From contig CANFXW010000009.1 of NCBI GenBank assembly GCA_947451145.1, positions 62,001-126,000 of the forward strand: 64,000 bases of DNA, written 5' to 3'. The position numbers were made by a program, and so were the translations under genes. The notes beneath the pieces are model-generated. The model ran no database searches. It had not been told where the DNA came from and worked only from the letters and a program-made list of their open reading frames with translations. This stretch comes from Sphingomonadaceae bacterium (lineage in GTDB: Bacteria > Pseudomonadota > Alphaproteobacteria > Sphingomonadales > Sphingomonadaceae). Positions 5,506 through 28,365 of the stretch are shown piece by piece (position 1 is the first letter of the stretch; every line of letters begins with the position of its first letter).

Positions 5506-5525
5506 TTCCCAAAACTCCAGTAACT

Positions 5526-6454: not shown

Positions 6455-6487
6455 TGGACATAGTGTCCAGTATGGACAGCGCGTCCA
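6455..6487. promoter_or_regulatory. Tandem palindromic operator, TGGAC-N5-GTCCA x2
   Basis: TGGACatagtGTCCA (6455-6469) and TGGACagcgcGTCCA (6473-6487), 18 bp centre-to-centre, between divergent hydrolase and TetR genes. Confidence 0.8.
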
Positions 6488-6508
6488 TTTCGCTTTAGGC
6501 CCAGCGTC

Positions 6509-7129: not shown

Positions 7130-7130
7130 T

Positions 7131-8900: not shown

Positions 8901-8944
8901 GGCGGCGGATTACCTCAGGCTAGCCAGTCATCTGGGCAACATTC

Positions 8945-8961
8945 ACTGACACCATGTCAGT
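8945..8961. promoter_or_regulatory. Palindrome ACTGAC-N5-GTCAGT, probable TetR operator
   Basis: ACTGACaccatGTCAGT in the divergent intergenic region between the TetR gene and the ThuA gene. Confidence 0.6.
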
Positions 8962-9069
8962 TTTGCTTGCCGCTGGCAATGTGCGCGTATAGAATGAGGC
9001 GTGAGGTGCCAGCAAGAAAGCTGGGCGAGCGCCCGGCCAAACCAATGGGCCATCGGTGGGAGAAGATCG

Positions 9070-9975
9070 ATGAAACGCATTGTTAAGCGCACCCTGTGGG
9101 CCGTGCTGGCGCTGTTCCTGGTGGCACTCGTCGGAGCTGCCATCGCGTTCGGGCCAATGACCTATGCGGCCATGGTCGGCTACCAGATTTATGAAACGGT
9201 CCCTCCGAAGCTGCCCGATAATTTGGGGCCAAAGGCTATCCTGATCTTCTCGAAAACCAACGGTTTCCGCGACGATGATCAGATCAAGGCAGGCAATGCG
9301 GCGGTTGAAGCGATTGCCAAACGCGAGAGCTGGTCGAGCTTTACCACAGAGAATGCAGCCGTCTTCAATCCGGAGCAACTCGGCCATTTCCAGGCCGTCG
9401 TTTTCGATAGCGTCAGCGGCGATGTCTTCACCCCAGAACAGCGCGCTGCATTCAAGGCATGGCTGGAGCAGGGCGGCGGTTTCGTTGGCCTGCATGGTGC
9501 AGGCGGAGATACTAAATACGCCTGGCAATGGTATGCCGACGAGCTGATCGGTGCGCGGTTTATCGGCCATACGCTCGGGCCGCATATCCAGCAGGCAACA
9601 TTGGTGATCGAGGACCAGAACCACCCCGCGACCAAGGGCCTTGGTGCAAGCTGGGTCCGTTCGGACGAATGGTATTCCTTCGCCGCAAGTCCGCGCGCCA
9701 AAGGTTACCAAGTCCTCGTCTCGATCGATGAATCGACTTACAAGCCGATTGAGCACCTCCTTCCGTTCACCACACCAAAGAGCCTTGCCATGGGCAAAGA
9801 CCACCCGATGGTGTGGACGCATTGCGTCGGCAAGGGGCGGGCGCTTTATTCAGCTCTGGGCCATACGGCATCGTCCTATACCGAGCCGAAGCATGTCGAG
9901 CTCATTAAGGGCGCGATTGCCTGGGCGGCTGGCTACGAAGGCACCGGCTGCGGCTCTGAACAGACAGGCAAATAG
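9070..9975 (+). CDS. ThuA domain-containing protein
   Basis: AILIFSKTNGFRDDDQIKAGNAAVEAIAKRESWSSFTTENAAVFNPEQLGHFQAVVF...GGGFVGLHGAGG; start at MKRIVKRTLW. Confidence 0.9.
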   Translation: MKRIVKRTLWAVLALFLVALVGAAIAFGPMTYAAMVGYQIYETVPPKLPDNLGPKAILIFSKTNGFRDDDQIKAGNAAVEAIAKRESWSSFTTENAAVFNPEQLGHFQAVVFDSVSGDVFTPEQRAAFKAWLEQGGGFVGLHGAGGDTKYAWQWYADELIGARFIGHTLGPHIQQATLVIEDQNHPATKGLGASWVRSDEWYSFAASPRAKGYQVLVSIDESTYKPIEHLLPFTTPKSLAMGKDHPMVWTHCVGKGRALYSALGHTASSYTEPKHVELIKGAIAWAAGYEGTGCGSEQTGK

Positions 9976-9978
9976 GCC

Positions 9979-11166
9979 ATGGCCAGATCACGGTTCAGCC
10001 GGTTTATCCGCTTCCTCGGCAAGGCGCTGATTGTCATCTTGGCGCTCGGCATGCTGGGCAGCCTGTTTCCGCAGATTTCCGTGCTGGGCGAACTCGGGCC
10101 AATCCTGACTGCCCAGCTTGGCCCCTGGCTGGCGGTCATCGCGCTGGCCGGAGCTGTTATCATGCTTCGCCGCTGGCGGGCAGACCGCCGCAGAAGTGCG
10201 CTGGTCCTCTGCGGTATGGCGGCATTCGCCGGGGTTGTGGCTGTATTCATCCTGTCCCAGCAGGCCGCAACTGCGCGAGCCAACGGGGCGAGGGTTGATA
10301 TTGCGCAGATGTTTCTGGCCAGCTCGCAAGAGGCACCTGACCCGCTTCCGGTTACCGTGAACTACACTAAGTTCGGAACGGAAGATCTGCCGCTGGATAT
10401 CTACCGACCCGCGGCCAGGGCGGACGGCAGGGGCGCACCGGTGTTTGTCTATGTCCATGGCGGCGGCTGGGGAGGACAGACGCTCAAGCAGCGCGAGGCG
10501 GACTATCGCTGGTTCGTGGACCGTGGCTATCTGGTGGTCTCACTGGAATACACTCTATCCAGCAAGACCAGACACACCTGGAACGTGGCTGAGCCGCAGC
10601 TCGCTTGCGCGCTCGGCTGGATCAACGCCAATATCGCGCGCTACGGCGGTGATCCGGCAAGGCTTGCGCTGTGGGGCGAATCTGCCGGCGGCAACCTTGT
10701 TCTCAACCTTTCCTATCGCGCCAACGGCGGAACCCTGCAGTCCGTCTGCGGCGGCACCATGCCCCATGTTGCCGCGACCATTGCGCTCTATCCCGTGGTC
10801 GATCCTGCACGGATGTACCGCCCGGATGAGGCGCTGCTCGGCTTTGCCGGCAGGATGATGGGTGACAACTACACCGGCGGTTCGCCCGAGCAGTTTCCTG
10901 ATCGCTATGCCGCCATTGCTTCGGCAACCCACATCAATCCCAAGGCCCCGCCGACTCTGCTGGTCATCCCTGCAGCCGATCACCTTGTGGCTCCTGCCGT
11001 CGCCTATTCTTTTGACGAAAAGGCGCGCGCAGCCGGGATCGAAACCCGCGTGATAACGATGCCCCATGCCGAGCATGCCTTCGATCTGCGCAGCGGCAGC
11101 GTGGGTAGCCAAATGGTCAGGCAGGTGATGCTGCAATTTCTCGAAGCCCACGAATTGAAACCCTGA
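9979..11166 (+). CDS. Alpha/beta hydrolase (esterase/lipase family)
   Basis: VFVYVHGGGWGGQTLKQREADYRWF...LALWGESAGGNLVLNLSYRA. Confidence 0.88.
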   Translation: MARSRFSRFIRFLGKALIVILALGMLGSLFPQISVLGELGPILTAQLGPWLAVIALAGAVIMLRRWRADRRRSALVLCGMAAFAGVVAVFILSQQAATARANGARVDIAQMFLASSQEAPDPLPVTVNYTKFGTEDLPLDIYRPAARADGRGAPVFVYVHGGGWGGQTLKQREADYRWFVDRGYLVVSLEYTLSSKTRHTWNVAEPQLACALGWINANIARYGGDPARLALWGESAGGNLVLNLSYRANGGTLQSVCGGTMPHVAATIALYPVVDPARMYRPDEALLGFAGRMMGDNYTGGSPEQFPDRYAAIASATHINPKAPPTLLVIPAADHLVAPAVAYSFDEKARAAGIETRVITMPHAEHAFDLRSGSVGSQMVRQVMLQFLEAHELKP

Positions 11167-11191
11167 ATTGCGACTGCAGGAACGAGATCCC

Positions 11192-12895
11192 ATGACAATC
11201 AAGACAATCAACCTAGGTGCAACAGCACTTCTGCGGACCTCTGCATTGATCGCCTTGGCCATTGCGCCCCCTGCTCTCGGCCAATCCGCTCCCGCTCCTG
11301 CCCCCGCACCGGCCAGTCCCGGTCCGCTGACCATTCAGGCTGACAAGCCCGGCGCGGTGATCAACCGCGACATTTTCGGCCAGTTCGCCGAGCATCTTGG
11401 CCTCGGCATCTATGACGGTGTCTGGGTCGGCAAGGACTCCAGGATTCCCAATGTCCGAGGCATCCGCAGCGATGTGGTTGGCGCGCTGAAGGCGATCAAG
11501 GTGCCGGTCGTGCGCTGGCCGGGCGGCTGCTTTGCCGATGAATACCACTGGCGTGACGGCATCGGCCCCGCAGACAAGCGCAGGACCACGGTCAACACCA
11601 ACTGGGGCATGTCGGTTGAGCCGAACACCTTCGGCACTGACGAATTCATGGATTTCGCGAGCCAGATCGGGGCGGAAGCCTATATCTCGGTCAACGTCGG
11701 TTCGGGCACAGTCAAAGAGGCAAACGACTGGGTCGAATATATGACAGCCGCTGCGCCGGCCACTGCTGCTGCCGAGCGCGCTGCCAATGGTCATCCAGCA
11801 CCCTACAAGGTCAAGTACCTCGGTCTCGGCAACGAAAGCTGGGGCTGCGGCGGGCCGTTCACTGCAGACGAATATGTCACCAATATGAAGCCGTTCGCGC
11901 ATTTTGTGCACAACCAGAACCCGGCCCAGGCCGATCCGGCGATCGACTTCACCAAGCTGATCAACGATCTGATGACGGGCAAGGGCATGGACGCCCTTCC
12001 GCGCAATCCAAATGGGATGATGCGTGTCGCGGTCGGGCCGAATTCGCTGGATGGGTCCTATACCGATGCGGTGATGAAGGCGTGGAAGACGCGCTCGCCA
12101 ATCGATTGGAGCATCGAAGGGCTATCGCTGCACCACTACACCTATGGCGGCCTGCCAATGAGCGAACCCGCGACCGGGTTTGGCGAGAAGCAGTATTTCA
12201 CCATGCTCAAGCAGACGCTCGGCATGGAAAGCAATATCGCTATGCATTCGGCGATCATGGACAAGTATGATCCGAAAAAGACTGTTGGTCTGATGGTCGA
12301 CGAATGGGGTGTATGGTTGAAGGCTACGCCCGGCACCGAGCCTCTGCACCTACGCCAGCAAAATTCGCTGCGCGATGGCATTGCCGCATCGCTCAACCTC
12401 AACATCTTTGCCCGTCACGCAGACCGCGTGCGGATGACCAATATCGCGCAGATGGTCAACGTCCTGCAGTCGATGATCATCACCGACGGCGAGAAGATGG
12501 TGCTGACGCCTACCTATCAGGTCTACAAGATGTATGTGCCGTTCCAGGACGCGACCTTCCTGCCGATCACCTTCAACAGCGGCGAATACAGGCTGGGCAC
12601 TGCGAGCCTGCCAAAGGTCGATGCCATTGCTGCCAAGGACAAGGACGGCAAGGTCTGGTTGGCACTGACCAATCTTGATGGCAACAATGCCGCAGACATC
12701 AGCGCTAGCGCCGCCGGGGTGACCGCCAAATCGGCGATTGGCGAAGTTCTGACAGCGGACCGGGTCGATTCGATCAACACTTTTGACACGCCCAATGCCG
12801 TGGCTCCCAAACCTTTCAGCGCAAAGGCCGCCAACGGCAGTCTTGTTCTGCACCTGCCGCCCCATTCTGTGACGGTTGTCAGGCTGGACAAGTGA
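11192..12895 (+). CDS. Alpha-L-arabinofuranosidase, GH51-like
   Basis: DIFGQFAEHLGLGIYDGVWVG...VVRWPGGCFADEYHWRDGIGP...; KYLGLGNESWGCGG; signal peptide at MTIKTINLGATALLRTSALIALAIAPPALGQS. Confidence 0.9.
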   Translation: MTIKTINLGATALLRTSALIALAIAPPALGQSAPAPAPAPASPGPLTIQADKPGAVINRDIFGQFAEHLGLGIYDGVWVGKDSRIPNVRGIRSDVVGALKAIKVPVVRWPGGCFADEYHWRDGIGPADKRRTTVNTNWGMSVEPNTFGTDEFMDFASQIGAEAYISVNVGSGTVKEANDWVEYMTAAAPATAAAERAANGHPAPYKVKYLGLGNESWGCGGPFTADEYVTNMKPFAHFVHNQNPAQADPAIDFTKLINDLMTGKGMDALPRNPNGMMRVAVGPNSLDGSYTDAVMKAWKTRSPIDWSIEGLSLHHYTYGGLPMSEPATGFGEKQYFTMLKQTLGMESNIAMHSAIMDKYDPKKTVGLMVDEWGVWLKATPGTEPLHLRQQNSLRDGIAASLNLNIFARHADRVRMTNIAQMVNVLQSMIITDGEKMVLTPTYQVYKMYVPFQDATFLPITFNSGEYRLGTASLPKVDAIAAKDKDGKVWLALTNLDGNNAADISASAAGVTAKSAIGEVLTADRVDSINTFDTPNAVAPKPFSAKAANGSLVLHLPPHSVTVVRLDK

Positions 12896-12935
12896 ATTCG
12901 AGCCGATCGATCCAACAGCAAAGGAAAATCCGCCC

Positions 12936-13505
12936 ATGACCTTCAGCACTGTTCAGGAAATTGGTTTGGAGCGGCGCGATTTCATTCGCGGTGCCCTGCT
13001 CGCTATCGGCGCTGCCGGAGCATCGTTTCCGGGGTTGAGCGCACTGGAAGCGGCGACGAAGGTCAAGCCACCGTTCTTTGACGCGCGCCGTTTCGCTATC
13101 CTGGATGCCGCAGCGGAGACGATCCTGCCGCGCACCGACACACCCGGCGCGCGCGATGCCAAGGTACCCAAGCGGATCGACATGCTGATGATCGGCTGGG
13201 CTTCGGCCAAGACCAAGGCCGATTTCACAAAGGTGCTTGATGACATGGACAGCGCGGCAGGCGGTCTTGCCGCACTGCCTGCGGACAAGCAGCTGGCGGC
13301 CGTCTCTGCCTTTGACAAGGCGCATGCCGCAGACCCGGCTTATGGCAAGTTCAAGAAGCTGGTTCTGGCGCTCTATTACTTGTCCGAACCGGGCGCGACG
13401 CAGGAACTGCGGTACGAACATACACCGGGCGCATGGGAACCTTCGATCCCCGTTACCGCCGATACCCGCGGCTACGCGGTTGACGTAAGCTTTGGAGGGA
13501 ATTGA
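12936..13505 (+). CDS. Gluconate 2-dehydrogenase subunit 3 family protein (Tat signal)
   Basis: RRDFIRGALLAIGAAG twin-arginine signal; followed by GMC oxidoreductase. Confidence 0.8.
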   Translation: MTFSTVQEIGLERRDFIRGALLAIGAAGASFPGLSALEAATKVKPPFFDARRFAILDAAAETILPRTDTPGARDAKVPKRIDMLMIGWASAKTKADFTKVLDDMDSAAGGLAALPADKQLAAVSAFDKAHAADPAYGKFKKLVLALYYLSEPGATQELRYEHTPGAWEPSIPVTADTRGYAVDVSFGGN

Positions 13506-16067: not shown

Positions 16068-16394
16068 CACCTATTATCTGGGCATAAGGATTTCGGCTCC
16101 GGCAAATGAAGGGGCCCGCAGGTTCTGATGCCTGTTTCTTCGCCGCGGATTTCTCTAGCGCGCGTGGATGAATGGTAGCGGCAAGCGTGCCCAGCTAAGT
16201 AGTGAGCGAGCAACAACTAATATGTCTGCGCCGACCGATACAAAGCGAACGCCTGCTTTGTTGTCGTGTCCGAACGGGCTGCATTCAGATTGGATCGGCT
16301 ATTCGCTGACATGGCTGTGCATTCATTGGGGCGTCCGCATTTCGGGGTTCCAAACAATTTGCCACCGTTCAGGATCGTCCAACAAAGCCGACCC

Positions 16395-16943
16395 TCACCC
16401 TCGCTCAGTCCACCACTCTGGCCAACGCACATTCTCTGGCGTGCGCGTCGCCTTCCACACCTCACGCTGCTCTTCCGGCGCAAGTCGCCGTGTCCCGAAC
16501 CTGTTCAGTGCTGCCTCGACGATCCACGGGGCGAGCAGCCAGTGTACCTTCTTTTCGTCGAGCGGGAACCGTTTCACTGCTAGTCCGAGCGCGCGAAGCG
16601 AACAGCCGATTGTATAACTGATCACGATGATACGGGTGATCTGGGTTATCCCCTGTTTGTCAGGTCGGCTGGCGCGGGCGGCTTCGATTGCATTGAGAGA
16701 AGCCCGTGCGGCTGCACTGTCACCCGCAAGTCCCTTGCGTGTTAGCTGAAGCAAGAACGCTTCCGCCGCGGTAACTCTTCGTTCACGCCCGTCTTCGCGG
16801 ATCGTGACCATCTGACCGAGGACGGTGTCATAGGGGATCTGCCGGGCGCGACCGCGCGGACGCCCCTTGGGATTACCGCTGCTACCTTTCCTGAACCGCG
16901 TCGCCGCCGGCGGACTCTTGTACCCGATCTGCTCACTCTCCAT
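16395..16943 (-). CDS. DUF5681 domain-containing protein (AT-hook-like N-terminus)
   Basis: TRFRKGSSGNPKGRPRGRARQIPYDTVLGQMV. Confidence 0.8.
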   Translation of the reverse strand: MESEQIGYKSPPAATRFRKGSSGNPKGRPRGRARQIPYDTVLGQMVTIREDGRERRVTAAEAFLLQLTRKGLAGDSAAARASLNAIEAARASRPDKQGITQITRIIVISYTIGCSLRALGLAVKRFPLDEKKVHWLLAPWIVEAALNRFGTRRLAPEEQREVWKATRTPENVRWPEWWTERG

Positions 16944-16945
16944 GG

Positions 16946-17485
16946 CTAACCTCGCCGCTTGCGCGGCCAGCGCAGTCTGGCGGGATTGATCGTCTGGCGC
17001 TTGATGTCCTCGATGTCCTTGTCGGTGAGCATTCGCCGGCCGGGGCGGCTGATAGCCATCTGGCTTGCCCAGGTGGCGAGTCTCATGGGCCGTGTTGCAG
17101 GACCTCCACCGTGCGGCGGCTCGTCGAGTTCCGCTATGCCAAGGAGCATCATCGCATCGTTGGCATTGTTACTGTCATGCTCGATCTCGAGAGTGACCGG
17201 CTTGAACTCTGGAGGAGCCAGTTTCAGGATCGCAGCCTCGCGCTTCTCGATCATCTTGAGTACGGTGCGGATCGCCATGCGGCTGCCCTTGAGCGCGGCC
17301 TGGTAGGTCGGGAGCTGAAGCGCTTCATCAACGCTGAACTCACGCTCGATGCCGTTCTGTGTCACCTTGAGCGTCTTGTCGAAGATGATGTCGAACGCCG
17401 AGATATCCGGCCGCCGCTTTTTCGGGCGGCCTTTGAGGTTGCCCGATTGACCTTTCTGGAACCGGGTGGATGGCATGCCGTTCAT
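16946..17485 (-). CDS. DUF5681 domain-containing protein (second paralogue)
   Basis: STRFQKGQSGNLKGRPKKRRPDISAFDIIFDKTLKV; 4-nt overlap with the methyltransferase gene. Confidence 0.8.
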   Translation of the reverse strand: MNGMPSTRFQKGQSGNLKGRPKKRRPDISAFDIIFDKTLKVTQNGIEREFSVDEALQLPTYQAALKGSRMAIRTVLKMIEKREAAILKLAPPEFKPVTLEIEHDSNNANDAMMLLGIAELDEPPHGGGPATRPMRLATWASQMAISRPGRRMLTDKDIEDIKRQTINPARLRWPRKRRG

Positions 17486-18783
17486 TCAGCAGCCTCCGCG
17501 ACCCCGCGATGGACAAGAATCGCTTGCCTGCCGGTAAGCTGCTCCCAGCGCATGATGGCAACATCGACATAGGCAGGATCGATATCGACGCCGCGGAACT
17601 GCCTTCCCACCCGCTCGGCCGCGATCAGGCTGGTGCCCGAGCCGAGGAAGATGTCGAGGACAAGTTCACCCAGCCGGGTAACATCACAGATCGCATCAGC
17701 GACCATAGCGACCGACTTTACCGTCGGGTGCAGCGCCAGATCCTCGCGGCGGCTGCCGCGCATCGAGTTCACCGAGGCGTAGTCCCAGACGTTGGTCCGG
17801 TTGCGCCCATGCTTGCCAAGTTCGACCGTGTTGGAGTGCGCAGCACCCGGCACCCGGTAGACGAACACCATCTCGTGCTTTGAACGATAGAGCGAGCCCA
17901 TGCCGGCATTGCTCTTGTTCCACATGCACATATTGAGAAGCGTGTCGTAGATAGGAGTGGCCGCCGCACTGACATCGTCCATATGCCGCCAGTCCATACA
18001 GACGAAGTGGACCGCGCCGGGCCTTGAGACCGCGGCACAGGCACCCAGCGTCTCGGAGAGGAACGTCCGGAACGCGGACGTGGTCATCTCGCCCGAGGCC
18101 ATGGCGAACTCGCGGTGTCGCCCCTTGGCATTCGCGTGGCCGTTGATCTTCACGTTGTAAGGCGGATCGAGAAAGGCGGCATCGATCGCGCCCTTACCGA
18201 TCACCTCGCGCAGAAACGAGATATCTCGCCCATCGCCGCAACCAATACGGTGTTCGCCGAGTTGCCAGATGTCGCCGGGCACCGTGCGGGGAGTCTCGGG
18301 TACGGCCGGGATCACCTCGTCGTCGGGATCTTCGCTGTCCTTGAGGATTACGTCGATCTCGCCCGAGCTGAACCCGGTGAGGCCAAGATCAATGTCGATG
18401 TCCGGCAGTGACAGGTCGGCGAGTTCCAGCTTGAGGATCTCGACATCCCAGCCGGCGCTTAGTGCAATCTTGTTGTCAGCCAGCCTGAGCGCGCGGACCT
18501 GCGCGTCGCTGAGCCCGGCAATCTCGATCACCGGGACCTCGGCAAGACCCAGTTGCTTTGCCGCCAGCAGCCTTCCGTGCCCGGCGATCACCTTGCCCGA
18601 TGGCTCCGCGAGCACCGGGTTGGTAAACCCGAACGTCCGGATCGAGGCAGCGATCTGTTCGATCTGCCGTTTGGGATGCGTGCGCGCATTGCGGGGGTCG
18701 GGGACGAGGCTCGCGGTCGGCCAATAGGCGACGGCGAGCGAGCGATCAGCAGGCGAGGCTGCCGAGTGGGGCGAATCGGCCAT
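17482..18783 (-). CDS. ParB-like nuclease domain fused to site-specific DNA (N4/N6) methyltransferase
   Basis: SLVPDPRNARTHPKRQIEQIAASIRTFGFTNPVLAEPSGKVIAGHGRLLAAKQLG (ParB-like); DAAFLDPPYNVKI and VLDIFLGSGTSLIAAERVGRQFRGVDIDPAYVD (MTase). Confidence 0.92.
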   Translation of the reverse strand: MADSPHSAASPADRSLAVAYWPTASLVPDPRNARTHPKRQIEQIAASIRTFGFTNPVLAEPSGKVIAGHGRLLAAKQLGLAEVPVIEIAGLSDAQVRALRLADNKIALSAGWDVEILKLELADLSLPDIDIDLGLTGFSSGEIDVILKDSEDPDDEVIPAVPETPRTVPGDIWQLGEHRIGCGDGRDISFLREVIGKGAIDAAFLDPPYNVKINGHANAKGRHREFAMASGEMTTSAFRTFLSETLGACAAVSRPGAVHFVCMDWRHMDDVSAAATPIYDTLLNMCMWNKSNAGMGSLYRSKHEMVFVYRVPGAAHSNTVELGKHGRNRTNVWDYASVNSMRGSRREDLALHPTVKSVAMVADAICDVTRLGELVLDIFLGSGTSLIAAERVGRQFRGVDIDPAYVDVAIMRWEQLTGRQAILVHRGVAEAAE

Positions 18784-18913
18784 GATCGAACATAGGCAGA
18801 ACGTTCCCGTTATGTCTACCTCCCGACACAATGCCCTTGGGGATAAATTCGGGAGCGCCTCAGGCATCGACAATGGACTGGACTGTTGGGCGCAACCGAG
18901 CATTGGTCGTTAT

Positions 18914-18930
18914 GCCCGGCCGTGCCGGGC
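18914..18930. promoter_or_regulatory. Inverted repeat GCCCGGC-CGT-GCCGGGC in divergent promoter region
   Basis: 7-bp perfect arms, about 50 bp upstream of the DUF3489 start. Confidence 0.5.
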
Positions 18931-18980
18931 TCGTGGCGGTAGCGGCCGGGATTGTCCCGCGCTGCAACCGGAGAACTACA

Positions 18981-19286
18981 ATGACTAACATTACCCAGAG
19001 CGCCGCTAGCCAGAAGAGGCCGCGCCGGATGGCGCGCGAACCGCAGGCTAGCTCAGGCTTGCAGCAGCAGTCCGAACCGCGCGCAAAGGCACCATCAAAA
19101 CTTGACCAGGTCGAGGCCCTGCTTCGCGCCGGGCAAGGTACCGGCATTGCCGAGATCATGGCTGTAACCGGCTGGCAGCAGCACTCGGTGCGTGGGGCCA
19201 TGGCGGGAGCACTCAAGAAGCGCGGACTGGTGATCACCTCGGCCAAGGTCGATGGTGTCCGCCGCTACCGCGCGAGCGCGGCATGA
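18981..19286 (+). CDS. DUF3489 domain-containing protein
   Basis: SKLDQVEALLRAGQGTGIAEIMAVTGWQQHSVRGAMAGALKKRGLVITSAKVDGVRRYR. Confidence 0.9.
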   Translation: MTNITQSAASQKRPRRMAREPQASSGLQQQSEPRAKAPSKLDQVEALLRAGQGTGIAEIMAVTGWQQHSVRGAMAGALKKRGLVITSAKVDGVRRYRASAA

Positions 19287-19693
19287 GCGCGGCGCAGGTA
19301 ACAGAGTCCGTCCGCGAGATTGAGAACCTCGATCTTGATGGCCTGAGGAAGGAGTGGGCGCGCCATTACGGCGCGCCTCCGCCGCTGCGTTCGGTCACCA
19401 TCCTGCGGCTTATCCTGGCATGGCGGCTGCAGGCTGATGCGCAGGGCGGACTAGACAGCGATACGCGCCGCGCGCTGGCAAGGAAGGGCAGGGTTAAGGC
19501 TGAAGGGCTGGAACTTGGCATTGGCGCGCGGATTACCCGCACCTGGATGGGCAAGACCCACGAGGTAATCGTCGAGGCGGACGGGTTCCGCTGGGAGGGA
19601 CACACCTATCGCAGCCTGTCAGCGGCCGCGACCGCGATTGCCGGCAGCCGCTGGAATGGGCCGCGGTTCTTTGGCCTGCGCGAGGCACCATGA
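19283..19693 (+). CDS. DUF2924 domain-containing protein
   Basis: EIENLDLDGLRKEWARHYGAPPPLRSVTILRLILAWRLQADAQGGLDS...GARITRTWMGKTHEVIVEADGFRWEGHTYRSLSAAATAIAGSRWNGPRFFGLR; ATGA overlaps on both sides. Confidence 0.92.
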   Translation: MSAAQVTESVREIENLDLDGLRKEWARHYGAPPPLRSVTILRLILAWRLQADAQGGLDSDTRRALARKGRVKAEGLELGIGARITRTWMGKTHEVIVEADGFRWEGHTYRSLSAAATAIAGSRWNGPRFFGLREAP

Positions 19694-21252
19694 AGCGCTG
19701 CTCCATCTACACCCGCAAGAGCAGCGACGAGGGTCTCGAGCAGGAGTTCAACAGTCTCGATGCCCAGCGCGAGGCAGGTGAGGCCTATGTGAAGAGCCAG
19801 GCCAGCGAAGGCTGGCGCGCATCGCCTGCGCGCTACGACGATGGCGGCTATTCAGGAGGCACCATGGAACGCCCGGGTTTGCAGCGCTTGCTGGCAGATA
19901 TCGATGCAGGCCTGATCGATGTTGTGGTCGTCTACAAGATCGATCGACTGACCCGCAGCCTCGCCGACTTCGCCCGCATCGTCGAGCGGTTTGATGCCAA
20001 GGGCGTGAGCTTCGTCTCGGTAACCCAGTCGTTCAATACAACCTCGTCGATGGGCCGGCTGACGCTCAATGTCCTGCTGTCGTTCGCCCAGTTCGAGCGC
20101 GAGGTCACTGGCGAACGTATCCGTGACAAGATCGCTGCCTCCAAGGCCAAGGGCATGTGGATGGGCGGCACCCTGCCGCTGGGTTACGATCCACCGCTTC
20201 CCGGCGCCCGCGTTCTGCAGGTGAACCAGTCCGAAGCGGCAACAGTGCGGCATATCTTTACGCGCTACCTTGAACTCGGCTCGGTGCACAGGCTCGCCGA
20301 GGAGCTGCAGGAACAGGGCATCTTCTCGAAGCGCCGCATCGCGGCGAGCGGCAAGGAGCAGGGCGGCTTGCCATTCTCACGTGGCGCCCTGTTCCACCTG
20401 CTGCGCAACCGGATCTACCTCGGCAAGATCACGCACGGCACGCTCATCCACGAAGGCCAGCACGAGGCGATCATCGACGAGGACCTGTTCGCGGCCGCCG
20501 AGGCAAGGCTCGACCTCCAGAAGCGCCGACATGGCAGTAGGGCCGAGAGCAGGGTCGCCAAGGCGCCGCTCACCGGTCGGTTGTTCGATGCAGCAGGTAT
20601 TCCAATGAGTCCCTCGTTCTCGCGCGGGCGCTCGGGGAGAGTCTATTGCTACTACGTGTCGGCGTCGCTGCAGCAAGGCGGCAGGGCAGGGGCCTCGAAT
20701 GGAACCCGCGTGTCAGCGACCGTTCTGGAGAGGATCCTGACGCAGGCGCTAGGCCGGCTCATGCCTTCCACGCGCAATGCCTTTGGTCAGGTGGACAAGG
20801 TAACGATGCGTCATGACCGGATTGAGCTGGCATTGCCCGCAACACTCGCACGCGAAGCGGCATTGAACTGCGAGGATGGAGAAGAGGTAGTGCCGTTGGA
20901 CAGAGCAACAAGCCTCCTCATCTTGCCAATCACCCTCGCTTCCAGGCGTGGTGCCAGAACCATTGCGAGCGGCACGAAGCCGCAGGCGCAGCCTGATTCC
21001 ATCCTCATCGCAGCGCTGCGCAAGGCGCACCGCATGCTGGGTTCCGATCGGATCGGCAGACCGGTTCTTCATTCCTCGCCAGCCTCCAGATACGAACGGC
21101 GCCTGGTCCGGCTGGCCTTTCTCGCCCCTGTGATCCAGGCCGATATCCTTGCCGGACGCCAGCCACATCACGTCAACCTCGAGGTCCTGATCAGGGCAGA
21201 CATACCGCCAGATTGGGATGACCAACGCGCCGCGCTGCGCTGGAACGGCTGA
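19690..21252 (+). CDS. Recombinase family protein (large serine recombinase)
   Basis: MKRCSIYTRKSSDEGLEQEFNSLDAQREAGEAYV...DVVVVYKIDRLTRSLADFARIVE...SSMGRLTLNVLLSFAQFEREVTGERIRDKIAASKAKGMWMGG. Confidence 0.95.
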   Translation: MKRCSIYTRKSSDEGLEQEFNSLDAQREAGEAYVKSQASEGWRASPARYDDGGYSGGTMERPGLQRLLADIDAGLIDVVVVYKIDRLTRSLADFARIVERFDAKGVSFVSVTQSFNTTSSMGRLTLNVLLSFAQFEREVTGERIRDKIAASKAKGMWMGGTLPLGYDPPLPGARVLQVNQSEAATVRHIFTRYLELGSVHRLAEELQEQGIFSKRRIAASGKEQGGLPFSRGALFHLLRNRIYLGKITHGTLIHEGQHEAIIDEDLFAAAEARLDLQKRRHGSRAESRVAKAPLTGRLFDAAGIPMSPSFSRGRSGRVYCYYVSASLQQGGRAGASNGTRVSATVLERILTQALGRLMPSTRNAFGQVDKVTMRHDRIELALPATLAREAALNCEDGEEVVPLDRATSLLILPITLASRRGARTIASGTKPQAQPDSILIAALRKAHRMLGSDRIGRPVLHSSPASRYERRLVRLAFLAPVIQADILAGRQPHHVNLEVLIRADIPPDWDDQRAALRWNG

Positions 21253-21263
21253 TCGGGTATTTT

Positions 21264-21482
21264 CCTGTTATTGCGCTTAGCAGGCCCTGTTCTGGTCGAT
21301 AACAGGGCCTGTTATGGCGATTTAAGCCCCTGTTATGGCATTTAACAGGGAATGGCATTTTGCGGCTCGAAAGTGGCAGAAAACTGCGGCCCACGGTCGG
21401 CCACGATAGCGATGCAGACCGCAAATGCCCTGTTTTGACCTGCGATTTTTGCAATTTTCCCTGTTCCTGATTGAAAACAGGC
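21264..21482. repeat. Cluster of CCCTGTT/AACAGGG words downstream of the serine recombinase (copy 2)
   Basis: Nine CCTGTT/AACAGG occurrences in about 220 bp, including a 21-bp-period direct repeat CCTGTTATGGC(g)ATTTAA at 21308 and 21329. Confidence 0.75.
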
Positions 21483-21651
21483 AAACCGGACCGATTGCGA
21501 TCCGTGCGGAGACTGGCTCCGCGACGGGCCGTAGAAAGGGTCTAAGACGGCGGCAACATTTGCGCCCTGATCCGGTTTGAGCCACGCAAGCCCGCGCACA
21601 CCGCGGCGTTGCGCGGAGACCCTGTTATCAGAGACTGGTGCTCGGGGTCGC

Positions 21652-21665
21652 TGGCGGAGACGGAG
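21652..21665. repeat. Candidate attL (14-bp core TGGCGGAGACGGAG)
   Basis: Identical to the tRNA-Ser 3' terminal sequence at 28273-28286. Confidence 0.7.
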
Positions 21666-21856
21666 TCCGTCCGAATGACGGCGTATTTGTCGAATGTGAC
21701 GGTATTGCGTGGGATTGACCCATTGCCAGCATCGGAAACTAGACCCATCCGACGCACAAGACTTTTGCAAGCGGGTCGTAGTTGCAGGGTCGAAATTACA
21801 TGGTTGCATGGTTGGACGGAGGTGCACTAATTGCTTAGCCCCCAATGGAGGCAACA

Positions 21857-23005
21857 ATGACAGACACCAAACGCAAACCCCTAACCACTGATCTTGCAGT
21901 CAAGAACGCGAAATGCGCAGAGGGAAAACGTGTCACGCGTTATTCCTGCGGAGGTCTCGGTCTATTCCTTGACGTCAAAGCGGGCGGTGCGCGGTCCTTT
22001 ATGCTTTGCATCATGGTCAATCGAAAGCGTTTGGAGCGAGGTCTTGGGTCGTACCCACAAGTTGGGCTGGCCGATGCCAAGGAGCGAGCCATTGTGTGGG
22101 CACGGCAGTTGCGCGAAGGCAATCAGGTAGGGGTAAAGGCGGCAAGGGCAGCGGCCCCAGCAGTTGTCACCTTTCGCGCGGCCGCCAAGCAATTTCTCGA
22201 ATTCCAAGACAGAGAAGGTAATTATAAGAAGGCATTAAATGGCAAGGAGGGTGTTCATCGCCGTCAATGGGACTACACGCTCGATACTTTTGTTCACCCA
22301 AAGATAGGGGATATGGACGTCAATGAGATACGGCTTTCGCATCTCACCCCAATCTTTGAACCTATGTGGAAGGCGAAGTATGCGACCGCATCGAAGACGC
22401 GCTCGCGCATTGCGCTTGTCCTCGATTACAGCGTTGATCAAGGTTGGCGGAATGAGGATTTGATGAATCCTGCACGTCACAAATCAACCACTTTCAAGCG
22501 ACCGAAGGGCTACCAAACAAAGAGTCATGCAGCTGTTGAAGTCGAGGATATGCCAAACTTCATGGCCGATCTTCGTAAGCTGGAATCGATTTCAGCAGCC
22601 GCATTAGAGATCACGATCCTGACAGGCGTTCGCACAACTGAAACTCGTGCGGCGAAATGGGACGAGATTAACTTCGAATCCCGAACTTGGATCATTCCTG
22701 CCGAGAGAATGAAAGCGAGCAAGGCGCATCGCGTTCCGTTGTCTGATCGCGCAATCGAAGTGTTCAAGCGGCTTCTCCCACTGCGGGGGCCGGACGACTT
22801 TGTGTTCCCAAGCCGGGGGAGCTGCCTTTCAAATATGGCACAGCTTGCTTGTCTCAAGGGCCTCCTGCCTGATGTAACCGTCCATGGCTTTCGCTCGACG
22901 TTTCGCGATTGGGCCATCCAACAAGGTATTGTCGATGAAGTGCGCGCAGCATGCAGCGCACACTCGAAAAAGGACAAGGTGCAGGCGGCATACGAACAGG
23001 CCTGA
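21857..23005 (+). CDS. int: P4-type tyrosine recombinase/integrase, short C-terminus
   Basis: LAVKNAKCAEGKRVTRYSCGGLGLFLDVKAGGARSF (DUF4102-like N-terminus); LTGVRTTETRAAKWDEIN; VHGFRSTFRDWA; SAHSKKDKVQAAYEQA*. Confidence 0.9.
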   Translation: MTDTKRKPLTTDLAVKNAKCAEGKRVTRYSCGGLGLFLDVKAGGARSFMLCIMVNRKRLERGLGSYPQVGLADAKERAIVWARQLREGNQVGVKAARAAAPAVVTFRAAAKQFLEFQDREGNYKKALNGKEGVHRRQWDYTLDTFVHPKIGDMDVNEIRLSHLTPIFEPMWKAKYATASKTRSRIALVLDYSVDQGWRNEDLMNPARHKSTTFKRPKGYQTKSHAAVEVEDMPNFMADLRKLESISAAALEITILTGVRTTETRAAKWDEINFESRTWIIPAERMKASKAHRVPLSDRAIEVFKRLLPLRGPDDFVFPSRGSCLSNMAQLACLKGLLPDVTVHGFRSTFRDWAIQQGIVDEVRAACSAHSKKDKVQAAYEQA

Positions 23006-23074
23006 GGCCGCTTGCGAAAGTCCTGAACTCACGCCACAACGATTTTGCCTTCCGTGAAAGCCGGTAGGCGGGGC

Positions 23075-23188
23075 TTAGTAACCCCTCTCAGCAAACTCGG
23101 TCCCCAATTTGGAGGCCGGGTGGCATGCGCGTATGTCCAGCCGGTTCGCCGGTAAAGGCGCATGCGCCTGCGCTGAGTAGGTTACTAA
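23075..23188. other. Nested inverted-repeat region (structured DNA/RNA candidate)
   Basis: TTAGTAACC/GGTTACTAA (23075-23083 and 23180-23188) and CTCAGC/GCTGAG (23087-23092 and 23172-23177) enclosing GCATGCGC/GCGCATGC and CCGGttcgCCGG. Confidence 0.6.
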
Positions 23189-23251
23189 CATCCGGCTTTG
23201 GCCGCGCCCCGAGAGGAACATAGGGGTTGCGCAAGGTCTAGCTGATCGCCG

Positions 23252-23268
23252 CTCCTGACAGTCAGGAG
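23252..23268. promoter_or_regulatory. Hairpin CTCCTGAC-A-GTCAGGAG overlapping a Shine-Dalgarno sequence
   Basis: 8-bp perfect arms; right arm contains the AGGAGG ribosome binding site of the GTG-started ORF at 23276. Confidence 0.6.
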
Positions 23269-23275
23269 GCGCGCT

Positions 23276-23860
23276 GTGAAATTCGTTGCAGTAATGGTTT
23301 TCGCAGGAGGGTTGGTCGCTCTTCTGCTTGGGCTGATTGGTATCGTAAGACCGATTACGATCTTGCGCATGCCCACAAGGAAGCGCGCTGCCGGTTGGGT
23401 AGTTATCGGCTTTACTGCGATGATTCTCGCGGTGATTGTCGGCCCCTCTGAGACGGAAAAGCAACGAGCTGGCGGACAGCAAGAACTAGGCCAGCGTCGG
23501 GAAGCGGCAGTTCAGAAGTGTTTGCAAGATGGCAAATATGCAAGTCAGGCTGACTGCATATCAAAAGTCAGCGATGCCTTTGAACTGCGTCGCCATGGGA
23601 TGAGTGACGCGCTAGATAAATTTCAACAGTGTGCCAAGGATGGTTCGGGCTGTCCCGACGCCAATTCCTTTGATCTGCCATATTCCTGCCAAACTGCATT
23701 CGAGGCAGCGGGCGTCGCATTGTACTTTACAGATTCAATTGATCGGAAGCGAAAGTGGGCAGAGGTAAAACCCACCGAATGCATTGATGAAATGGAGCTA
23801 TGGAAGTTGCAGGCAAAGCCGGTTTTTAACGCTTTGGAAAGAGCAGCAAATCGTCCGTAA
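23276..23860 (+). CDS. Hypothetical protein with N-terminal membrane segments and a Cys-containing C-terminal domain
   Basis: GTG start with strong SD; MKFVAVMVFAGGLVALLLGLIGIVRP...AAGWVVIGFTAMILAVIVGPS. Confidence 0.6.
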   Translation: MKFVAVMVFAGGLVALLLGLIGIVRPITILRMPTRKRAAGWVVIGFTAMILAVIVGPSETEKQRAGGQQELGQRREAAVQKCLQDGKYASQADCISKVSDAFELRRHGMSDALDKFQQCAKDGSGCPDANSFDLPYSCQTAFEAAGVALYFTDSIDRKRKWAEVKPTECIDEMELWKLQAKPVFNALERAANRP

Positions 23861-24280
23861 CAGGCCGTTGGGTAGCAGCTACTCCCGGTATCGATACCCT
23901 GCCTGTTGAAACCTTGCCGCGCATTGCAAACATGGCAACTGACTGCGACCACGAGCTAACCGAGGCTGGGTTGGCTGGCTTGGCAGATAGCCTGACCACA
24001 GATTGAGACCATTTTACCGACAGCGGGGGGGATAAGCATGATCCCTTTCACCGGATCAAGATGCTGATGCGGACATGACGTCCGCAACACTCAATAGGAA
24101 ATCCGCCACTTTCCGACTGTTGTTGTCCGCTAACCCTGCAAATGCACCGATAACAAGGAGCGTCGAGGTCGCAGCATGTGAGTGTGCAATTTGCCTTTGG
24201 ATGCGAGGCAGGCCTTGTTTGATGTAGCTGCTTCACTGATCCGGCGTAGATATTTGGGCTGCAATTTGCCAATCTCAGCT

Positions 24281-24523
24281 TATCATCCTGCAATATCATC
24301 AGAACAAATAAAACGTATCATCGAGAAATAAGCGGCTCATGATACAAAATTCAGCTGATTTTGGGGATTTAATAAACATGTATCACAAATATCATTTTTA
24401 TCATTATTTCATGAAATTTTGAGTCTCGATATGAGGCTCTATAAATTGCTTCCGACGCATATCTCCTTCGACGCCTTTGTGCAGGCGGGGCGCACGTCAT
24501 ATTCGTGTGAAGCGTGATACATG
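24281..24523. other. AT-rich iteron-like region, putative replication origin
   Basis: Six TATCAT/ATGATA words within 24281-24404, TATCAC/GTGATA at 24381 and 24514, palindrome ATTTCATGAAAT at 24406-24417, adjacent to the primase gene. Confidence 0.5.
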
Positions 24524-24530
24524 CACATGA

Positions 24531-26927
24531 TCAGTCAAAAGCATCTCCACGTGCCCAACGGCCATCAATCTGCTGGCCCTTTGCGTCCTTGACGGGTTCA
24601 ATTTTTCGCGAGAGCTCAAGTAGACCTAGTGCGGCTCTGATCGCCCTTTTAGGGTCCTTGCTGTCGATCTTGCCCGCACGTGTGGTTATGCTGTCATAAT
24701 CGGGCAGATAGGCGAGTGTGAAATAGCCTTTGGCAATCGCCATGCGCGCCCGAGCGGGATTTGTGCACTTTCCTTTCTCAAAATATCGACGGATTAGCTC
24801 TTCGATCCGCGCAGCGAGAGCAATGGTATCGCTGTCCAGGTTACCGTTGCGAAGATGCTCCAGCGCAATTGCAGTTGAATTTTCGCAAGCCATGCGCGAC
24901 CAGTCCAGTATCTCCCGCGTGATTGGCGTCCCGTTCCAAAATGCCATTGCCGTGGCCATTCGAATTGTGTTCTCGCATAATGAGCGGAGCAGCTGTGCCT
25001 TTTTCCCAGCGTTTGCACGTCTCCAAAGCGATACCTCCTGCCGCCATTCGAAGAATTCATTGTCCAGCTCTTCGGTCGTGAAGCCGACGTGGAAATGGGG
25101 CTGAGGTAGATTGTTCGGCGGGTTGATGCAGGCAAAGCGCGACTGCATGGCTTCAAGTAATTTCGGATCGACTGCTTCGGCTGGCTTCCGATTGAATGAT
25201 GGCTTACCATCACCCTGAGCAAAGAACACGCGACCTAGAAGCCCGTCTGTGACGCCATGCGCAGCCAACCCTTGAAACGTCTCTTCTTCGGTCCCCATCC
25301 CCAAAAACGACAACGCCGGATTGGCGATGGGTTCACGGTCTTTATCGGCCTTGGTCAACTCTTGCCCGGTTAGCATTTTGCGCGGGCCAAACTGCGAAAC
25401 TCCGTAAATCTTCTTCATCAGATCGAGAATGCCGCGCTGCCAAGCCGAGGTTGATCTTGTCAGGGCCTCAAACCAAGGGCCCATTTCATCTTGCAGTAGG
25501 AAGCCCGAGCCATTGCACGGACCCTCACCGAGTTTTCGATAGAGGCCGCTGTCCGAACGCGGTTCACCGATGATCTTAACTCGATCGCCGACGACCTGTG
25601 ACATTGCTCCTCCTGAAAGGACCTCCTTGCCGAAACCGGCTGTTGCAGTGGCAATGATGTAAAGGTTGGCGAACGCGAGTGAGGGTCCGACAACGCGGTT
25701 GCCAAGCATCGCTCCCATGTGACTAAGGGTTGCGACGTTCGCCAACTGAAGGTCGGTTTCGGCGACCGAAGTCAAAAGCCAATCGCGGTAGCCGCGGTAG
25801 ATTGGGACGGGAAAATCGGGCAGTTCAATTCGCGGGAAGTCATCATCGATCTCGATCCGCTTCCCGGCTCGAGCTATATAGATGCCTGCCATGCGCTCCC
25901 GCTGCGCATCGGCCTCCCGCTTAGCTTCCTCCACTTCGCGGTTCGCTAGGCCAATGAGCTTGTGATACTCGCCCCTGAGGTTGAAGCGATCATAGTTGAC
26001 CTTCGAAGGCGAAGTGAAGCGACGCTGGTTCTGCTTGGAGATGGCAGGGGTTTGCTCGGCCAAGTAGGACTCGCTGACGATCCGCCAAACAATCTCATGT
26101 TGGTCCCTGTGGCCACAGGTGATTTTTGCGGCCCATTGGATCAAGGCCGCACGGGATTCGGACAGGTTGACCTCATCAAGCCCGGCTGGGCCTTCTATCA
26201 ATTCCCGGTAGTTGAACCCTGCGCTGGTCTTGCTTGAACTCTGGACCATGCGTCGCCGGGTTTCGCCAATGGCCTCCTCCAAAGGTAAGGCGCATAGTTC
26301 GGAATCGCCTTCAACCTCGGAAATGGGGACACCGTCGAAGCTGTAGCTTGAAGCGATGCCTTGCAACTGTGCTAGCAAGTTCGCGGGAATGGCAGCGATT
26401 GGCAGGCCATTGCTGCAGCCGGTCATCCGAACCCAACCGTTACCGATCAGCAAATCAATTCCATGGAGGCCTTTTATTTGGCGGAAGGGAAGGCCGTGGT
26501 CGTTAGGCAACCGGAACGCGGCATGAAATCGCCCTGGGCTGCGGGACTGCTCAGTGTAGGTGGTTTCAAGACAGTCGGCCAGCAAGCAATCATACGCTGA
26601 CTGCGCCGTTTCCAAAGTCTGACCTTCACCATAGTTCGCATGCTCGCGGCTGGGACGATCATCGAAATCCAGCCAGAGAATTGACCCTGTGCCAAGGTGC
26701 GCCGCGTATGCCTGCTTACCCTGTCCTCTCCAATAATCGACCCATGCGATAATCCGAGGCAGTGCCGAACGTACTGACGAGTCACTCCAAGTGACAACTG
26801 TACTTGTCCCGTAGTGCGGGTTGTTCTCATCACCAGCCAACGGTTGATAGAGCCATTGATCGCCAAGGTTCAGGAGAAATTCGTCTCCCTCTATGACGGG
26901 CCAGTGGTTTGGTTTGAACTCTGACAT
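24531..26927 (-). CDS. Primase/helicase-like protein (DUF3987-like)
   Basis: MSEFKPNHWPVIEGDEF...; ILWLDFDDRPSREH...GRFHAAFRLPNDHGLPFRQIKGLHGIDLLIGNGWVRMTGC (prim-pol-like); LYIIATATAGFGKE (Walker-A-like) and FLLQDEMGPWFEAL. Confidence 0.75.
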   Translation of the reverse strand: MSEFKPNHWPVIEGDEFLLNLGDQWLYQPLAGDENNPHYGTSTVVTWSDSSVRSALPRIIAWVDYWRGQGKQAYAAHLGTGSILWLDFDDRPSREHANYGEGQTLETAQSAYDCLLADCLETTYTEQSRSPGRFHAAFRLPNDHGLPFRQIKGLHGIDLLIGNGWVRMTGCSNGLPIAAIPANLLAQLQGIASSYSFDGVPISEVEGDSELCALPLEEAIGETRRRMVQSSSKTSAGFNYRELIEGPAGLDEVNLSESRAALIQWAAKITCGHRDQHEIVWRIVSESYLAEQTPAISKQNQRRFTSPSKVNYDRFNLRGEYHKLIGLANREVEEAKREADAQRERMAGIYIARAGKRIEIDDDFPRIELPDFPVPIYRGYRDWLLTSVAETDLQLANVATLSHMGAMLGNRVVGPSLAFANLYIIATATAGFGKEVLSGGAMSQVVGDRVKIIGEPRSDSGLYRKLGEGPCNGSGFLLQDEMGPWFEALTRSTSAWQRGILDLMKKIYGVSQFGPRKMLTGQELTKADKDREPIANPALSFLGMGTEEETFQGLAAHGVTDGLLGRVFFAQGDGKPSFNRKPAEAVDPKLLEAMQSRFACINPPNNLPQPHFHVGFTTEELDNEFFEWRQEVSLWRRANAGKKAQLLRSLCENTIRMATAMAFWNGTPITREILDWSRMACENSTAIALEHLRNGNLDSDTIALAARIEELIRRYFEKGKCTNPARARMAIAKGYFTLAYLPDYDSITTRAGKIDSKDPKRAIRAALGLLELSRKIEPVKDAKGQQIDGRWARGDAFD

Positions 26928-26928
26928 T

Positions 26929-26957
26929 GCACTCACCTTGTGTTTCAGGGTGAGTGC
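26929..26957. promoter_or_regulatory. Inverted repeat GCACTCACC-N11-GGTGAGTGC upstream of the primase start
   Basis: 9-bp perfect arms immediately 5' of ATG at 26927 (minus strand), overlapping the apparent SD AAGGTGAG. Confidence 0.6.
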
Positions 26958-27073
26958 CATCCCTTGTATTGGGACGCCGTTTTGCACCTATATAATTGTA
27001 TTACTAATATTATTTTGCTTGTCTCAACTGCCGCGCATGATGTATTCGATACGCCTCGTCAGGACGCCCCACA

Positions 27074-27520
27074 ATGACGCCAGAACCTTTTCATCAAGTA
27101 CGCGCTGACATTGCATTGGCCCTAATCGCCGATGGCCGTGTCCCATCCGAATTTTGCAGCGAGCAAGACCCGAATTTGCCTAGCCGTCCGTCGAGCCTTG
27201 AGCATTGGGCACTCGTTGATGCGGGCTTCGCTGCGCGGCTCAAAGCGGCCAAGGCGACCGGGGCCTTGGTCATGCTATCGCAATGCATCCAAATCGCTGA
27301 TGATCAAGCAATCCGGGCAGACCAGAAACGCCTGATGATCGACACACGCATGAAGGTCGCTGCGATTTGGAACCCATCTGACTGTGTGCCGTCGAAACCA
27401 GACAAGGAGCCGATAGCTGGCGTTCACGCACTTTTGCACGTGCCCTTCGATCAGCTCGATGACAGTAAGAAGCGCGAAGTCGAGAAGTTTTTCGGCTTCG
27501 ATGCGCCAGATCGGCCATAG
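27074..27520 (+). CDS. Small terminase subunit-like protein (Sf6 gp1-like fold)
   Basis: ADIALALIADGRVPSEFCSEQDPNLPSRPSSLEHWALVDAGFAARLKAAKATGALVMLSQCIQIADDQAIRADQKRLMIDTRMKVAAIWNP follows the Sf6-type TerS pattern (W..D..FA...A.A.......I.IAD......RL.IDTR). Confidence 0.65.
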   Translation: MTPEPFHQVRADIALALIADGRVPSEFCSEQDPNLPSRPSSLEHWALVDAGFAARLKAAKATGALVMLSQCIQIADDQAIRADQKRLMIDTRMKVAAIWNPSDCVPSKPDKEPIAGVHALLHVPFDQLDDSKKREVEKFFGFDAPDRP

Positions 27521-27547
27521 TTGCTTGGGGTGTCAGTGCGCACTCTA

Positions 27548-27748
27548 TCACCTGCCCAACTCCTCACAGAGCTGAGAAACCATGTCCTTTAGAGCAATGC
27601 TGAAACTACCATGATAGCTTACCGCTCCAGCAAGATCAGTCAGGGCTTCGGCAATCTTCGACAGCTCGAGTACGTGAAGAGCGGCAGCAACGATTGCAGG
27701 GTCGCTTGAGTCGAGAAGTCTGGCTACAATGTGATCGCGCTCGCTCAT
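27548..27748 (-). CDS. Small hypothetical protein translationally coupled to the AlpA-like gene
   Basis: 66 aa, 4-nt overlap with upstream regulator ORF. Confidence 0.5.
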   Translation of the reverse strand: MSERDHIVARLLDSSDPAIVAAALHVLELSKIAEALTDLAGAVSYHGSFSIALKDMVSQLCEELGR

Positions 27749-27957
27749 GCCGAAGCTCCCGCTGGATGCCGACAGGCATCGAGAAGCCCCTCTAGGCTTG
27801 AAACGAATATTAGCCTGCGGCCTCCCACAGTCGCCGACTCAAGTCGGCCATCGTCCATCATTTTGTATAGTGTGTCTTTGCCCAGCCCCGTGGCTGAAAC
27901 AGCCGCCTTTACCGAGCAGGTGATTGGCCGAAGGCCAGTTGAAGTATCGAAGTGCAT
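27745..27957 (-). CDS. AlpA/excisionase-like helix-turn-helix protein
   Basis: CSVKAAVSATGLGKDTLYKMMDDGRLESATVGGRRLIFVSSLEGLLDA matches the MerR-like HTH_17/excisionase pattern. Confidence 0.8.
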   Translation of the reverse strand: MHFDTSTGLRPITCSVKAAVSATGLGKDTLYKMMDDGRLESATVGGRRLIFVSSLEGLLDACRHPAGASA

Positions 27958-28148
27958 AACGCCTCCCTAGAGGCGGTGTTTCCGGCTAAAGGCCTTATGA
28001 TTACCGCGAGTTGATAACCCGGTCGCAGTTGCAGGTCGCTCATATGAGTGGCTTTCGAGTCTCTTTTCCGGGGCGACACATGTCGCGCCACCCTGCATAG
28101 GTCGAATGCGACTAATTGTCAACATAAATAATGTTTAATTTCATGCAG

Positions 28149-28187
28149 TTATTACATCTTTGTAATAATGCTACGCCTACGCGTAGG
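28149..28187. promoter_or_regulatory. Two adjacent palindromes in the att-proximal arm
   Basis: TTATTACA-tctt-TGTAATAA (28149-28168) and CCTACGCGTAGG (28176-28187). Confidence 0.65.
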
Positions 28188-28275
28188 GCAAGAAGCAGTG
28201 ATGGGTTGATTACAGGGTTATGCCAAGGGTCCATCAATTTATGATGGATTTTCAGTGCGATAAATTATGAAATGG

Positions 28276-28365
28276 CGGAGACGGAGGGATTCGAACCCTC
28301 GGTACCGGATTTACCAGTACGACGGTTTAGCAAACCGTTGGTTTCAGCCACTCACCCACGTCTCC
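28276..28365 (-). tRNA. tRNA-Ser (anticodon GCT); encoded CCA at 28273-28275
   Basis: Reverse complement GGAGACGTGGGTGAGTGGCTGAAACCAACGGTTTGCTAAACCGTCGTACTGGTAAATCCGGTACCGAGGGTTCGAATCCCTCCGTCTCCG(CCA); acceptor stem GGAGACG/CGTCTCC, class II variable arm. Confidence 0.97.

Follow-up and report, generated by a model that had tools for sequence, protein, structure and literature searches.

The locus described here lies in a 64,000-nucleotide stretch of the genome of a Sphingomonadaceae bacterium (assembly GCA_947451145.1, contig CANFXW010000009.1, positions 62,001 to 126,000; hereafter the window), in which a block at positions 21652-28286 carries six open reading frames (ORFs) between two copies of a 14-bp direct repeat. 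An earlier note on this DNA had read the block as a very small phage satellite of a sphingomonad-type host, integrated in a tRNA-Ser gene and encoding an integrase, a membrane protein, a primase, a protein resembling the small subunit of phage terminase (TerS), a 66-aa ORF and an AlpA-like regulator. All six ORFs were confirmed at their places and are open, approx. 76% of the block being coding, and family matches were obtained for four of them, i.e. the integrase, primase, TerS and HTH_17/AlpA proteins. The sphingomonad-type host was likewise supported.

The repeat, TGGCGGAGACGGAG, is found at 21652-21665 and 28273-28286 and nowhere else in the window, for which 0.0013 exact matches would be expected from composition. 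Its right copy constitutes the last 14 nt of a tRNA-Ser(GCT) gene (28273-28365, minus strand; identified by ARAGORN and as Rfam tRNA), the integration target, and its left copy (plus strand) is the tRNA-distal attachment (att) repeat, i.e. the displaced 3' end of the tRNA gene. We searched 196 congeneric genomes with the left flank of the block, consisting of a serine recombinase gene (19690-21252) and the following spacer, and recovered genome G537, which matched at two places with 80% identity across the entire query. At one of these (L117) the island containing the serine recombinase joins tRNA-Ser(GCT) and the eipA gene directly, the left flank entering the tRNA at the repeat and the element being absent. 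The left-flank match stops at 9008 and the right-flank match starts at 9021 (minus strand), the overlap being exactly the 14-bp repeat, and because the flanks meet in this way, the block was inserted as a discrete unit of 6,621 bp into the 3' end of tRNA-Ser(GCT), distinct from the serine-recombinase island. Its repeats correspond to the 3' end of the tRNA and the unoccupied site exists in a relative, so that it has both hallmarks of a site-specifically integrated tRNA island, as the earlier note had proposed. This empty site eliminates a chance origin of the repeat, and the possibility that the block is a portion of the neighbouring island was rejected, as G537 carries that island without it. 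The GC content of the block is 0.535, compared with 0.602 to its left and 0.633 to its right, and GC at third codon positions (GC3) is 0.49-0.61 in its genes and 0.70-0.76 in neighbouring genes.

The site itself is conserved in the genus, eipA being present in 57 of 60 congeners and tRNA-Ser(GCT) adjoining it in the majority of those inspected. Because the content on the 3' side of this tRNA varies from genome to genome among the congeners, and because other P4-type integrases are located next to tRNA-Ser(GCT) and an EipA-like ORF at two further loci (L255 and L257), we regard it as an integration hotspot. The adjoining serine-recombinase island occupies 16365-21665 of the window and is also present at L117 and L116 of G537 and at L115 (G000 contig C4); it encodes DUF5681 twice, a ParB-domain/N6_N4 methylase, DUF3489, DUF2924 and the large serine recombinase. 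Its end bears a tRNA-Ser 3'-end-like sequence, TGGCGGAG(A)CGG(A/G)AG, and both the second G537 copy and a deleted copy on C4 stop at the same sequence, away from any tRNA.

The first gene of the block (21845..23005, plus strand) encodes a 386-aa tyrosine integrase with Arm-DNA-bind_3, Phage_int_M and Phage_integrase domains and a phrog_1 match of 1e-42, assigned to the P4 type by NCBIfam PRK09692 at a score below the cut-off. Its catalytic residues R263, H347, R350, H373 and Y383 are all present, in columns that are invariant in our alignment. At the opposite end, next to the tRNA, lies a gene for a 70-aa AlpA/Xis-like HTH_17 protein (27745..27957, minus strand), which matched PF12728 with 27.7 bits against a cut-off of 27, as well as the TIGR01764 excise family (7.9e-6, under the cut-off) and phrog_66 (0.01). 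The largest gene (24531..26987, minus strand) encodes a primase-helicase of the prim-pol plus DUF3987 type, matching the DNA primase family phrog_3022 over residues 104-801 (2.5e-32); both DUF3987 (18.7 bits, cut-off 27) and Prim-Pol scored below threshold. In an alignment with 13 viral relatives, it was found to keep the DxD motif (D107 and D109), the Walker A residues G453-K454 and the acidic pair D500-E501. As the probable start codon, the ATG at 26927, for which AAGGTGAG is a possible ribosome-binding site, is preferred over the GTG at 26987. In addition, a repeat search revealed a 15-bp imperfect inverted repeat spanning the primase start (26926..26960), which may serve as an operator.

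The ORF at 27074..27520 (plus strand, 148 aa) matched the Sf6-type TerS family PF20901 (1.3e-8, above the gathering score) and phrog_1482 (4.8e-8), and no other PF20901 protein is encoded in its genome. We built a structure model of it using 45 relatives from IMG/VR (pLDDT, the predicted local distance difference test, 83.7), and the six best matches of this model in the PDB were all Sf6 gp1 (probability 1.00, template-modelling score 0.56-0.69, Foldseek E-value ~1e-3), every other match being far weaker. Both family membership and modelled fold thus support the identification of this protein as an Sf6-type TerS, so the assignment on which the earlier note's reading hung is upheld and a spurious ORF can be rejected. 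Upstream of terS lies a sigma-70-like promoter sequence, TTGGGA-16-TATAAT (26969..26996, plus strand), of a kind whose count in the region is not above chance.

Among 80 TerS loci retrieved from IMG/VR, the gene for the large terminase subunit (TerL) is directly downstream in most, and in several of the phage relatives of this TerS a P22-like portal gene comes next. The same arrangement is found within the bacterial family of our host, where terS overlaps the gene for a Terminase_6N TerL in two genomes (G063 and G274), with a P22-like portal after it in G063, and where this TerL shares 74% identity with its counterpart in phage Pam1. Since its phage relatives mostly precede a TerL and the element has none, its TerS is an orphan; no near relative of it was found in GenBank phages and plasmids. 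The phage region of G063 is present both in the chromosome (L053, C1) and on a separate contig of 38,127 bp (L054, C2), which is perhaps an excised or extrachromosomal phage genome.

Searches of the block ORFs with Pfam, phrog and NCBIfam profiles returned no TerL, portal, capsid, tail or lysis family, in agreement with the earlier note. The element therefore has what is generally expected of a satellite, namely genes for integration, replication and regulation without virion genes of its own, and a predicted content of integrase, AlpA-like excisionase/regulator, primase-helicase and Sf6-type TerS, lacking TerL and virion genes, is strongly supported.

In its layout, the integrase gene is located at the tRNA-distal end, on the opposite strand from alpA and the primase gene, and terS points the other way from primase, ORF66 and alpA, lying antisense within the alpA-ORF66-primase run (ORF66/alpA at 27548-27957). 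Because of this inversion, a transcript continuing past alpA would run antisense to terS. ORF66 (27548..27748, minus strand), an ORF call with no assigned function, overlaps alpA by ATGA and gave no family in Pfam, phrog, PADLOC or NCBIfam searches. The remaining gene, ORF194 (23276..23860, plus strand), encodes a predicted membrane protein with N-terminal hydrophobic segments, is present in one copy in the genome and belongs to no Pfam, NCBIfam or PADLOC family, its phrog_3403 match standing at 0.022. Downstream of the primase gene lies a 670-bp stretch without a convincing gene (23861..24530), which is the GC minimum of the block and in which repeats are limited to short two-copy ones. Given that the known origin of Gram-negative phage-inducible chromosomal islands (PICIs) is positioned downstream of pri (PMC10111431), this stretch is, by analogy, a candidate origin region. 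An Rfam scan returned only the tRNA, plus a sub-threshold match to a plastid family on its reverse strand. Predicted promoters and terminators were counted and compared with shuffled sequences, and as these counts do not clearly exceed the shuffles, we regard such sites as weak.

Near relatives of the primase were absent from 301 genomes of the family, from 196 congeners (two distant ones, at 26-28%), from GenBank phages (distant matches only), plasmids, IMG/VR and GTDB contigs, and seven primases, once aligned, proved too divergent to be used in scanning the collection. At the wider level of phrog_3022, primases were present in 20 of 201 family genomes, several of them within tRNA-associated elements that also encode a P4-type integrase and HTH_17/AlpA. 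Four of these combine all three genes at a tRNA target, L051 at tRNA-Ser CGA, L052 at tRNA-Ser TGA, L062 (G147) at tRNA-Leu and L066, from the same genus, at tRNA-Tyr; L051 and L052 share the tRNA-Ser target of our element. A fifth, L091, likewise from this genus and located at tRNA-Ser CGA, encodes an integrase and a primase. In contrast with the element, L051, L052 and L066 have an integrase gene adjoining the tRNA and co-linear genes (L062 deviates), and the primases of L051, L052, L062 and L066 are only distantly similar to that of the element. None of the five loci has an Sf6-type TerS, and the combination of int, alpA, primase and terS was found in a single copy in the family. L062 (3146-13966) encodes an integrase, HTH_17, a prim-pol/D5 primase, type III-like restriction-modification genes and a Cap15-type protein of cyclic-oligonucleotide-based antiphage signalling (CBASS), and reads as a satellite-like element carrying defence cargo.

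The best terS-bearing analogue was located in Wenzhouxiangella limi (L203), where an integrase 36-37% identical, HTH_17, a replication-initiation-like protein and a TerS (PF20901, 2e-28) occur together beside a tRNA-3'-end-like sequence adjoining the integrase, at a locus seen without its far end. TerL was not recognised nearby and Terminase_6N was not detected in the genome searched; a 744-aa ORF beside this TerS was considered as a primase and ruled out. A sister of the W. limi TerS, also an orphan of the Sf6 type, is located beside tRNA-Leu in a Wenzhouxiangella metagenome-assembled genome (L202, 7983-8462), within which locus no TerL was recognised.

Among the known satellites closest to it are the phage-inducible chromosomal minimalist islands (PICMIs) of the Vibrionaceae, whose core proteins are integrase, AlpA and primase (PMC10803314). 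Like these, the element is ~6 kb, encodes an integrase, HTH_17/AlpA and a DUF3987-type primase, has no capsid-remodelling genes, lies at the end of a chromosomal gene and contains large non-coding stretches. Of the three PICMI markers, which are an integrase, AlpA (PF05930 or PF12728) and a DUF3987 or DUF5906 primase, integrase and PF12728 exceeded their cut-offs in the element and DUF3987 did not, the primase being strongly recognised by phrog_3022 instead. However, PICMIs adjoin fis, whereas the element is in tRNA-Ser(GCT) beside eipA in a sphingomonad-type host; PICMIs have no terS, whereas the element has its own; and no counterpart of the int-overlapping gene (iolg) was found in it. Int, AlpA and primase are also the key genes of Gram-negative PICIs (PMC10111431), whose cycle is induced by AlpA and some of which encode terS (PMC6092414). 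We compared the element with these islands by gene content, order and size; it shares the int, alpA and pri set, the presence of terS and the lack of structural and lytic genes, but at 6,621 bp it is half their usual size (12-15 kb) and departs from their conserved order of integrase, replication module and master regulator in its tRNA-distal int on the other strand and its inverted terS. PICI att sites are never occupied by prophages; the site described here is a hotspot whose content differs in each congener, with other P4-type integrases belonging to untyped elements. P4-like satellites have in common with it a P4-type integrase in a tRNA 3' end, an AlpA/Vis-like protein and a primase-helicase, but its primase is of another family, terS is present, no sid, delta or psu-like gene was recognised among its ORFs, and the Rfam scan showed no P4 CI-type RNA and no C4/isrK RNA. 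The element is therefore filed neither as a PICMI (site, host, terS), nor as a PICI (size, order), nor as P4-like (late genes, CI RNA). Since its predicted genes are those of PICMI/PICI satellites with terS added, and only one copy of the combination was found in the family, the 'new family' put forward by the earlier note is premature.

Because it has genes to move, to copy itself and probably to get packaged, and none for a virus particle, the element is most likely a very small phage parasite. We consider it probable that it is a minimal satellite in the 3' end of tRNA-Ser(GCT), which would redirect the packaging of a helper by means of its own TerS. Infection or induction of the helper would switch on AlpA, AlpA and integrase would excise the element, and the primase-helicase would replicate it into concatemers. 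In PICMI115, excision or replication depends on int, alpA and prim, and eight copies joined in a concatemer are packaged in a headful-like manner in the absence of terS (PMC10803314). The terS carried here would add a step of the PICI type to such a concatemer cycle, TerS recognising a site on the element and recruiting the TerL of the helper, so that satellite DNA enters helper capsids. The pac (packaging) site of P22/Sf6-like phages lies in or near the terS gene. As no capsid-resizing gene was recognised, full-size helper heads would be filled with multiple copies, approx. six for a 36-38-kb head. As helper we would guess at a short-tailed, headful-packaging phage like P22, Sf6 or Pam1, solely on the ground that relatives of this TerS are encoded by phages of that kind within the same bacterial family. 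That all of this functions, as an unrecognised kind of satellite in Sphingomonadaceae which has PICMI-like smallness and is packaged as a full-length concatemer, steered by its own terS and a carried pac site, is a more tentative proposition.

Several observations weigh against the satellite interpretation. The integrase terminates in YEQA-stop, 3 residues past the catalytic Y383, and the homologues compared extend 23-45 residues beyond this tyrosine with a conserved KRR-x-LM-x-x-W motif; the other reading frames, inspected for loss of this tail by one simple frameshift, do not clearly contain the motif. TerS retains the conserved R-L-R-L-x-G-K-W motif only in part, and a tree built from 58 TerS proteins gives it an end branch of 3.32 (median 0.21), so long that neither its origin nor the helper can be placed on this tree. 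No close sibling was found by primase in the family and congeneric genomes given above or by TerS in 401 family genomes, IMG/VR gave no match to close-relative primase or TerS patterns, and there was no DNA-level match in GenBank phages. Finally, no helper was identified, and the only TerL found in the host by PF17289 is in a cluster resembling RcGTA, the Rhodobacter capsulatus gene transfer agent (GTA). Of the very small satellite envisaged by the earlier note, the insertion and the satellite gene set thus stand, whereas the lack of a helper, the missing integrase tail and the long TerS branch leave its activity in doubt.

Some of these features would be accounted for by a cryptic integrative element, or a decaying satellite or prophage remnant, which integrated once by its own integrase and is now stuck, with terS as a relic. 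The short integrase and the long TerS branch fit such decay, as do the incomplete coding and the 670-bp gap. However, all six ORFs are open, the catalytic residues of the integrase and the DxD and Walker A motifs of the primase are kept, both att copies are exact, and no other phage gene traces lie between them; as far as the data allow, the block was found neither without att repeats nor inside a larger decayed prophage. Because the integrase is short, TerS divergent and siblings lacking, we nevertheless give this explanation a small but appreciable share of the probability. Rather improbable is a small integrative element in which a TerS-fold protein has been recruited as a DNA-binding regulator or, in defence, to poison phage packaging: the extreme divergence from all phage TerS compared would suit such a role, as would the inverted placement of terS, flanked by primase and ORF66 and preceded by a promoter-like site of its own, but the Sf6 TerS fold is retained in the model, and where TerS genes are known outside phages, they are in satellites (PMC6092414). 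The RcGTA-like cluster (L118, G000 contig C8, ~1100-13000) encodes a phrog_4044 TerS, TerL, portal, adaptor, tail and host-specificity proteins and a glycoside-hydrolase-like protein. Exploitation of this GTA rather than a phage, suggested by the location of the host's only PF17289 TerL, is very improbable, since the GTA-like TerS is from another family, the TerL is not of the type paired with Sf6-type TerS in G063 and G274, acceptance of a foreign TerS by GTA packaging is without support, and the helper could simply be a virulent phage or one that this strain lacks.

If the satellite interpretation is correct, a phage parasite able to direct its own packaging would need no more than some five functions (integrase, AlpA, primase, TerS and one or two small ORFs). 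Literature searches for satellites in Sphingomonadaceae returned none described, and the element would thus bring together the economy of PICMIs and the TerS strategy of PICIs in a family whose satellites went unreported in those searches. The elements recovered alongside it indicate that sphingomonads harbour a larger reservoir of tRNA-borne int-AlpA-primase elements, some of which carry defence genes.

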